The notes beneath the pieces are model-generated. The model worked only from the letters and a program-made list of their open reading frames with translations. It was not told where the DNA came from and made no database searches. From Thalassospira lucentensis (GTDB lineage: Bacteria; Pseudomonadota; Alphaproteobacteria; Rhodospirillales; Thalassospiraceae): a DNA stretch of 64,000 nt. Numbering within the stretch: position 1 is the first letter of the stretch; every line of letters begins with the position of its first letter. Both the position numbers and the translations under genes were made by a program. Of this stretch, positions 3,003-61,991 are shown piece after piece. The DNA lies in the NCBI RefSeq assembly GCF_011806425.1, contig NZ_JAATOV010000005.1:248001-312000 (forward strand), given 5' to 3'.

Positions 3003-3169
3003 ATATGACAGATGCAAAGTCATTCTCAAACGGGGTGTTGGATATGTCCCCGGGCGGGAATGGCTTTTCCCTCATTTAAATGAGGGATTTGGTCTTTTTG
3101 AGTGATCAGGAGAAAGCTGTGGATGCAGTGCGGCCAACTGGGGCCGTTTTGCGCAACAGCGTGAAGTAG

Positions 3170-60673: not shown

Positions 60674-61139
60674 GCACAGCACATCTAAACAAGCCTTGCG
60701 AAACGGGCCGCTTTATCTACCTTTGGCGTTATTATCACACCTGTCACAAAAGCATTTTTCGACATGTTTGTTGAAAAATGCTTTCTCTTTGCCGCAGTGC
60801 AATGGCATGCTGAAATACCAGACGATGATGACAAATACCCATAGAGATTATCTCAGCGATTTTTCGGGCAGGAAGAATGCCGCAGGCGATATGGTGTATC
60901 GTCAAGGCGTTCTGACGCCCTCCGATAAATCGCCGAGATAACCGGAACGGCGTCTTCCCAAGGTTTTCGGGGGGGGGGCATCGTAATCGCCTTCCGATGC
61001 CCTGCATCGCTGCGTCGATTGCTCTTAACCGAAAAGCTTGGGAAGACGTCTCTATGGGTATTTGTCATCATCGTCTGGTATCATCCTGTCTGTGTGGTCA
61101 GCATGCCATCAAACGGGAAATCAACAGGGAGACTAAAAA
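60674..61139. other. Intergenic region holding a nested inverted-repeat element
   Basis: These 466 bases separate acyP from the acid phosphatase. About 308 of them (60802-61109) form the repeat element described separately. The rest shows no gene. Open frames that cross the repeat are explained by its symmetry. Confidence 0.7.
60802..61109. repeat. 308-bp MITE-like or structured element with nested inverted repeats
   Basis: Outer arms ATGGCATGCTGA (60802-60813) and its exact complement (61098-61109); next, an exact 33-bp inverted repeat, 60815-60847 and 61049-61081. Inside are two more near-palindromic arms: 60848-60867 with 60922-60941 (18/20 pairs) and 60949-60970 with 61029-61050 (20/22 pairs). 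Each has its own inner hairpin (GGCGT/ACGCC at 60906-60919; GGGCATCG/CGATGCCC at 60976-61002). A run of ten G is at 60969-60978. The whole could fold as a three-way junction in DNA or RNA. Both 33-bp arms start an open frame MMTNTHRD. No transposase and no clear target duplication were seen. Confidence 0.7.
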
Positions 61140-61991
61140 ATGACATTTATCGCAAGATCATTTGGTGTGGCTGCCATCATGGCGACCAGCGCACTGTGTG
61201 CCTTTGGGGCGAATGCACAGGAACCCGCACAAAATGATGGCCTGAACGGCACGTTGTGGCTTCAAACTTCGGTGGAATACAAGGCAACCGCAATGTCGGT
61301 CTATGCCGGTGCGACCCGTTTGTTGCCTGCCGCCATTGGTGATCACAGCTGGACCGCAGCACTTGAGCAGGGCGGCAATTACAGCGCAAAGCCGCCAGCG
61401 GTTATTTTGGATGTCGATGAGACGGTTCTTGATAACTCTGCCTATCAGGCATGGGTTGTCGCCGAAAACACCCATTACAGTTCCAAAACCTGGGCGGCTT
61501 TCGTCCATGACACGGTTTCAACCCCGACCCCGGGGGCACTTGAATTCACCAAGGCCGCTGCCGAAAAGGGTGTTGAAGTGTTTTACGTGTCAAACCGCAA
61601 AGCACCAGAAGAAGAATCGACCATCGAAAACCTGAAAAAATTCGGCTTCCCTTACGCAGATGACAAGCACGTTATGCTGCGCGGCGAAGTCGAAGAATGG
61701 GGCTCAAACAAAACCCCGCGCCGTCAGGCGGTGTCCGATAATTACCGCGTTATCATGCAGTTTGGTGACAACCTTGGTGACTTCACTGACGAAGACGGCA
61801 CCCTCGCAGAACGTCTTGATGTCATGAACAAATACAACACCTACTGGGGTGAACGTTGGTTCATGCTGCCGAACCCAAGCTATGGCTCATGGGAAGCATC
61901 GGCCTTTGGCGGTGATTGGGGTAAATCGGGCGGCGAACGCCGTCAGGATAAGATCAACAGCATGGCACCATGGGCTGGCCCGGCTGAATAA
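61140..61991 (+). CDS. Exported HAD acid phosphatase / 5'-nucleotidase (e(P4)-like)
   Basis: 283 residues with a signal peptide (1-26, ANA before QEP) but no good lipobox, so probably soluble in the periplasm, unlike lipoprotein e(P4). Motif I is VILDVDETVLDNS with Asp91 and Asp93, motif II YVSNRK, and the later region GDNLGDFTDEDGTL carries the motif IV acidic residues. It probably releases phosphate from nucleotides or other esters outside the membrane. GGAGAC precedes the start. Confidence 0.9.
   Translation: MTFIARSFGVAAIMATSALCAFGANAQEPAQNDGLNGTLWLQTSVEYKATAMSVYAGATRLLPAAIGDHSWTAALEQGGNYSAKPPAVILDVDETVLDNSAYQAWVVAENTHYSSKTWAAFVHDTVSTPTPGALEFTKAAAEKGVEVFYVSNRKAPEEESTIENLKKFGFPYADDKHVMLRGEVEEWGSNKTPRRQAVSDNYRVIMQFGDNLGDFTDEDGTLAERLDVMNKYNTYWGERWFMLPNPSYGSWEASAFGGDWGKSGGERRQDKINSMAPWAGPAE

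Follow-up and report, generated by a model that had tools for sequence, protein, structure and literature searches.

What occupies the intergenic region between acyP and the acid phosphatase gene on this Thalassospira lucentensis contig: a mobile element, a structured RNA or a local regulatory region? An initial annotation of the window (the whole 64-kb stretch of DNA analyzed here) had described a nested, 308-bp inverted-repeat segment at this position and read it as a MITE or structured RNA element. The segment is a real, mobile and structured element and not an artefact, and its relatives indicate which of its parts have been preserved.

Extent and predicted fold of the element

The exact 33-bp inverted repeat noted initially (60815-60847 and 61049-61081) was recovered, and the outer 12-bp arms, an exact inverted repeat (60802-60813 and 61098-61109), and the inner hairpins were found at the positions claimed. 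Approximately 4e-13 exact 33-bp repeats are expected by chance in the window, where the only other exact inverted repeat of at least 16 bp with arms starting no more than 400 nt apart lies at 3068 (17 bp). RNA folding, one of the checks proposed with the annotation, gave -180.7 kcal/mol for the segment compared with -98.8 +/- 4.7 kcal/mol for 100 shuffles (z = -17.4). Taken together, the chance expectation and a fold 17 standard deviations below the shuffles exclude chance. The 308-bp segment is thus real, although its outer 12-bp arms were wrongly included, as they are host sequence and the element itself spans 60816-61080. The predicted fold also differs from the proposed three-way junction, having four ways: the terminal stem, arm A, a 3-bp mini-hairpin and arm B. 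The features are as follows.

60816-61080, no strand assigned: whole element, TACC...GGTA, 265 bp, ends set by alignment to dispersed copies with unrelated flanks
60816-60847, plus strand: left terminal inverted repeat, exact complement of the right one
61049-61080, minus strand: right terminal inverted repeat, exact complement of the left one
60849-60940, plus strand: arm A hairpin, matching arm model R1 at 98.3 bits, with covariation in relatives
60870-60874, plus strand: conserved AGGAA, which forms the 5' half of the tandem-GA internal loop in arm A, near-invariant in 78 arms
60913-60917, plus strand: conserved TGACG, which forms the 3' half of the same loop, near-invariant in 78 arms
60942-60950, plus strand: central mini-hairpin CCG-GAA-CGG, predicted to fold as 3 bp with a 3-nt loop
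60951-61048, minus strand: arm B hairpin, running inward from the right end, matching R1 at 46.8 bits, type B by comparison
60969-60978, plus strand: ten-G run, absent from the other copies aligned
60802-60813, plus strand: host sequence outside the element, left half of the 12-bp stem bracketing the insertion
61098-61109, minus strand: host sequence outside the element, right half of the 12-bp stem bracketing the insertion

Arm A consists of stem 1, the AGGAA/TGACG internal loop (coordinates counted on the window sequence), stem 2, a GCAGG/TCAAG loop and stem 3; its high R1 score includes a circularity, as this arm belonged to training set A1 of the model. The loops of arm B are worn (AAGAG/CGATG), and this arm bears the ten-G run that the initial annotation had pointed out. 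The MMTNTHRD frame does open from both 33-bp arms, as had been stated, and merely follows from the terminal repeat. The overlapping ORFs here, 72-120 aa in length, are unlikely to be genes because stem letters turn over freely in relatives.

Insertion site and gene context

All 29 genomes of the genus carry sequence from the genes flanking the site. The empty site was read as uninterrupted TGGCAT-ATCCTG in 24 of the 28 other genomes, which answers the search for empty sites suggested at the outset; the searched motif was not found in the remaining four. When the element is removed from the window, nine bases separate TGGCAT from ATCCTG, exactly as in the sister genomes, so the insertion shows no added bases. 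In agreement with the annotation, no target duplication is visible at this copy, whose flanking triplets differ (AAA left, TCA right). The outer 12-bp host arms pair with each other as a fold of the host strand once the element is taken out, and they are partly found at the empty sites of sister genomes.

Two further observations concern the surrounding host sequence. A block conserved in 24 sister genomes upstream of the acid phosphatase (60803-60808 and 61083-61100; TGGCAT, nine bases, ATCCTG, then GGTCA) is interrupted by the element and may be an operator or promoter. A 16-bp inverted repeat (94 percent; 60749-60784) immediately downstream of acyP has a similar A/T-rich hairpin as its counterpart in sister species, and is perhaps the acyP terminator, though it was not listed by the terminator scan; the promoter and terminator scan of the region found none.

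The end of the element lies within a host hairpin and only 59 bp upstream of the phosphatase start at 61140, a position that would suit a structured regulatory region of that gene which never moved. As the origin of the segment, such a region is refuted by the empty sites in 24 of 28 sister genomes and by the dispersal of copies elsewhere, and we regard it as barely conceivable, while a regulatory side effect of the insertion remains possible. Elsewhere, by crude ORF calls, 58 copies lay between tandem (27), divergent (18) or convergent (13) genes, and eight were apparently inside long ORFs. No orientation bias was detected among the tandem genes (13 A-first, 14 B-first; crude gene calls).

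Dispersal, terminal repeats and target duplication

The window's own genome holds one copy and no second. Searching related genomes for other copies, as the annotation had advised, identified related sequence in at least 12 of 100 genomes in a first scan and, with a better query, in at least 49 of 297 genomes from the order (at least 31 of 111 genera), own genome included in each case; all presence and copy counts are lower bounds. Copies can be numerous, with at least 91 and at least 80 match places in two genomes, G120 and G112 (pieces and both strands counted; best 40 candidates each), and 102 terminal-repeat matches in a third, G061, compared with none for the reversed pattern. Many contigs of these three assemblies start or stop inside a copy; the element thus seems to break assemblies, making copy numbers underestimates. 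By name, carriers of the arm motif (78 stretches) included Kiloniellaceae, Marivibrio halodurans with six stretches, Pelagibius and Rhodospirillaceae records. Arm matches also occurred in records labelled Mesoflavibacter or Bacteroidetes (L283, L293, L302 and L289), which are perhaps mislabelled alphaproteobacterial assemblies.

In alignments, the dispersed copies had unrelated flanks and sharp ends, and 89 of 109 complete copies (all distinct places) were exactly 261 bp long. After two copies with weak ends, including the window's own, had been dropped, 60 of 107 copies had identical left and right flanking triplets, compared with a mean of 28.3 and a maximum of 43 in 2000 shuffles. The triplets are mostly TNA, which shows that the family duplicates a 3-bp TNA target. 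Small size, the lack of a gene of its own, exact 32-bp ends, dispersed copies, the family target duplication and empty sites together satisfy all the defining features of a MITE that could be tested. The element is almost certainly mobile, and what lies in the window is one worn copy of a MITE, a transposable element that is non-autonomous; MITE was one of the two readings offered as inference by the initial annotation.

Variants of the family were also encountered. Mini-copies of 31-33 bp (L154, near 1052; L156, near 1309) resemble two fused terminal repeats and are perhaps hairpin-deletion products. One 949-aa ORF, judged helicase-like by eye, takes its start codon and opening residues (MIMTHRD) from a terminal repeat in L135 (2743-2780).

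Search for an autonomous partner

No transposase gene with window-family ends was found. An end pattern that excluded MITE interiors, applied to 317 genomes with 0 mismatches, returned seven end matches, no two of them on one contig. Among the matches listed, facing end pairs 0.8-3 kb apart proved to be only neighbouring complete copies, both for the terminal-repeat pattern (three genomes) and for another end family (three genomes) and the second end kind of the genus. Likewise, no pair of window-family ends flanked any of 15 DUF4096 loci in 12 genomes, seven of which were also checked for any inverted repeats. Searching the terminal repeats against plasmids found no autonomous partner, the window element had no match to plasmids and phages at E 1e-5, and the arm pattern was without an exact match in viral contigs. 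A lost, diverged or unassembled partner remains possible.

In L149 and L150, transposase-like sequence follows a terminal repeat at contig ends. These loci were considered as an autonomous element and rejected, as L177 shows a separate CTAG-ended insertion sequence, which we take to be IS427-like. This IS5-type sequence directly adjoins or sits inside copies in L149, L150, L104 and L177 (genomes G065 and G045), and MITE copies may be preferred landing sites for it. A TNA target presumably marks the IS1031-like group of IS5. Of the two expectations for membership of this superfamily, the TNA duplication was met and ends shared with an IS5-family transposon were not.

Two unlike arms with covarying stems and a conserved loop

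The element profile matched both strands about equally, which indicates that the two halves are inverted relatives; the arms measure 99 nt. They are nevertheless distinct: when arms were typed by their best score to two reference arms, all 109 copies combined one type-A with one type-B arm, and A+A or B+B combinations were never observed. The foot bases were GAT in one arm and GAC in the other in 24 of 32 relatives with other ends. All 33 adjacent arm pairs faced inward (the window's pair counted twice). We infer that A and B would have to differ for each to fold on itself, given that equal arms would produce one long perfect palindrome.

For each arm, RNAalifold predicted a long three-stem hairpin; compensatory changes were present at 31 of 36 pairs in A and at 26 of 33 in B. 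On the stated structures, 29 of 33 (A) and 26 of 33 (B) pairs covaried, and none of 500 shuffles reached any of five measures. Near-identical arms had been removed from the underlying alignments (A1 and A2), followed by three of 45 A and four of 45 B arms (four loci with irregular arms). Among class-wide loci, all 34 arm stem pairs covaried; a change on both sides was the one measure reached by shuffles (3 of 500), the other four being reached by none. Cells were paired in 93.4 percent of cases, falling to 34-46 percent when partners were slid by 1-3 columns; this alignment had been fitted to the structure and included some opposite-strand rows. The initial annotation had stated that a sequence confined to one place in all relatives and without covariation in its arms would speak against a mobile or structured element. 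Dispersed copies and massive covariation show the opposite on both counts, and the conserved folded core bears out the structured part of the reading.

The most conserved letters of the arms are unpaired and form the AGGA/GACG loop between stems 1 and 2. In the model alignment, 49 chosen loci yielded 95 matches, of which 78 arms were kept after removal of overlapping opposite-strand matches and the window duplicate (the count of pair orientations retained the duplicate, giving 80). Conservation among these 78 arms was A 78, G 73, G 75 and A 68 on one side and G 69, A 77, C 75 and G 72 on the other. The fourth loop base is C in six arms, and in all six the facing base is A instead of G, which is covariation of a non-Watson-Crick pair. 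Two criteria for a structured RNA, covariation and conserved loops, were therefore met. The Rfam 15 search of the window returned only four tRNAs at the gathering score, and that of one family copy (L014) only sub-threshold matches at E 10.

Stems paired as well as these (93.4 percent of cells) could also arise in an ordinary MITE if template switching in quasi-palindromes perfected them, producing covariation without selection; short deletion derivatives of the element exist, as palindromes predict. This process should, however, erase internal loops, yet AGGA/GACG remains unpaired and near-invariant in 78 arms, one non-Watson-Crick pair of the loop covaries and equal arms are absent from 109 of 109 copies. 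Template switching alone is already disfavoured by these observations, and we consider it improbable. The fold is very probably under selection.

The same core behind different ends

The core is not confined to the window family. A covariance model of arm A matched at least 33 of 385 genomes of Alphaproteobacteria, own included. At the level of the phylum, at least five of 398 genomes were matched, namely the window's own, two congeners, another alphaproteobacterium and, beyond the class, G914, whose element resembles those of Vibrio campbellii and V. tritonius (71 and 68 percent).

The ends around this core differ. Clear terminal repeats were present in 37 of 51 loci with the core and fell into more than a dozen different sequences, including TACCAAGG, TACCACC, CTAGTGTGGTG, CTAGTGTCCTGG, CTAGCCCGCATTTC, GGTCAGGCCCC and CTAGAGCC; the other 14 loci had no long terminal repeat. 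Two genomes (G594 and G317) have two end kinds each, and the window's genus also carries a second kind. Some end kinds are alike, which leaves room for gradual change as well as for replacement. Because the hairpins persist despite differing ends, evolution seems to preserve the fold itself. MITEs are usually viewed as decayed transposons sustained by their ends; here the ends vary between lineages and it is the interior fold that persists, turning this view around. On the best reading of the data, these elements form a MITE superfamily with a selected single-stranded fold, probably RNA, of unproven function.

Strand preference and proposed mechanism

Read inward from the nearest end, G.U pairs outnumbered A.C pairs by 91 to 19 in A arms and by 113 to 27 in B arms, the arms in question coming from sequence-only searches. 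Among model-found arms, 54 leaned towards G.U, 10 towards A.C and 16 were tied. Related copies share descent in these counts, and the bias was weak when distinct pair types were counted instead of cells (46 vs 32). Together with the inward-facing arms, the bias suggests that each arm functions on one strand, as RNA or single-stranded DNA.

Between these two, hairpins of one DNA strand formed during replication or transposition might bring the ends together or recruit a host DNA factor. Inward orientation of all 33 adjacent pairs gives the dyad symmetry that a pair of transposon ends should show, a G.U over A.C bias would equally arise as G.T over A.C on one DNA strand, and no promoter was found by the promoter scan. 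Against this stands the persistence of the arms behind differing ends, so that they seem not to track a transposase, and tolerance of G.T is usually weaker in DNA. Single-stranded DNA consequently remains a possibility, though a less favoured one, and a modest preference for RNA appears justified.

Overall, we find it probable that the element is a MITE moved in trans whose core is retained for its single-stranded fold, most likely in RNA; transcription, function and host factor are all inferred. Under this proposal, the DDE transposase of another element, IS5-like as judged by the 3-bp TNA target, would act in trans on the ends. The core would owe its retention to a function in folded, single-stranded form, most likely as RNA arising from read-through transcription. 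RNA would be read inward from each end, and a conserved host factor, for example a nuclease, the ribosome or an RNA-binding protein, may bind the AGGA/GACG loop. That the arms act in transcripts is proposed by analogy: according to the parts of the source available to us, MITE transcripts form stable stem-loops, RNase III cleaves Correia-containing mRNAs and ERIC affects transcript decay (PMC10969869).

Comparison with known repeat families

No description of the window repeat family was found in open-licence literature. As far as this search extends, three features are new: the pairing of A with B arms, the conservation of these arms throughout the class and the variety of ends that surround them. 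The covariance model is ready for annotating this repeat family, copies of which lie at many contig ends in the genomes examined.

The small size, terminal inverted repeats, 3-bp TNA duplication and absence of a gene are shared with IS5-superfamily MITEs, for which we take the TNA target to be IS1031-like. The window family differs from these in that no insertion sequence with its ends was found and in that its core is common to different end families.

REP/BIME and CGTC-tagged repeats are likewise palindromic units, often arranged as dimers of opposite orientation and common in proteobacteria, and heterodimers are frequent in several GTAG/CGTC families, at least in the accessible portion of the source (PMC3733652). 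Those units measure 20-40 bp and have an unpaired tag, GTAG or CGTC, at one end (PMC3733652, same portion), whereas the window family has 99-nt arms within terminal repeats and a TNA duplication. The arms contain GTAG and GACG, and identity with GTAG/CGTC repeats was rejected on size and because those repeats, as described there, lack terminal repeats. Coxiella QMITE1/2 are also MITEs with stable folds, some yielding small RNAs, but have direct repeats of 2-4 or 7-9 bp, and a two-arm core is not mentioned in the sections consulted (PMC5896051, PMC10969869). Serratia and Pantoea plasmids (L373 and L374) carry TATACCCAAGTAACTTCAAGATGC ends around approximately 103-105 bp without two arms, and a Cronobacter match (L372) has one TATACCCAAGTAACTTCAAGATGC end only.

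The closest likeness is to ERIC and YPAL. ERIC (IRU, RU-1) of enterobacteria is a non-coding MITE with an AGGAG...TGAC tandem-GA hairpin on its better-folding strand, as far as the available text shows (PMC2759123). This hairpin (AGGAR...YGAC) reads AGGAA/TGACG in window arm A and AGGAG/TGAC in ERIC. YPAL (RU-2) of Yersinia has an AGGAG...CGAT tandem-GA hairpin on one strand but is 168 bp long with one long main arm in its fold. In a tandem-GA scan, ERIC and YPAL each matched on a single strand only, as did 16 and 15 of 5000 mononucleotide-shuffle draws, respectively; the likeness to ERIC had been spotted before testing, so these odds are generous.

The window element might belong to the ERIC family or be a parallel case. 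Besides the shared hairpin on one strand, membership is supported by V. campbellii copies, similar in fold, whose ends agree with ERIC at up to 20 of 26 positions (maximum 17 in 20000 shuffles), and by the Vibrio-like element of G914, which lies outside the class and still matches the arm model. Conversely, agreement at the ends drops to 15-17 of 26 in G914 and 8 of 26 in the window, and neither of two named Vibrio records matched the arm model at E 1. Length, arm number and target all differ as well: ERIC has one arm, 127 bp, TATACCC ends and a TA duplication (PMC2759123, in its available part), compared with two arms, approximately 261-275 bp, ends of the TACC..., CTAG... or other kinds and a TNA duplication in the TACCAAGG family for the window superfamily. 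The window element thus has the key hairpin of ERIC and fails its defining ends, length and duplication, leaving true membership doubtful though not dismissed.

More speculatively, a folded RNA module, the tandem-GA hairpin usually in an A/B pair, may have persisted across Proteobacteria on successive different transposon ends, with ERIC, YPAL and the window family as carriers; the module would then be the lasting unit, read by one conserved host factor. For the question of why ERIC-type repeats retain a central hairpin, the comparison offers a testable answer, namely that the hairpin presents a defined loop to which some cellular component has to bind.
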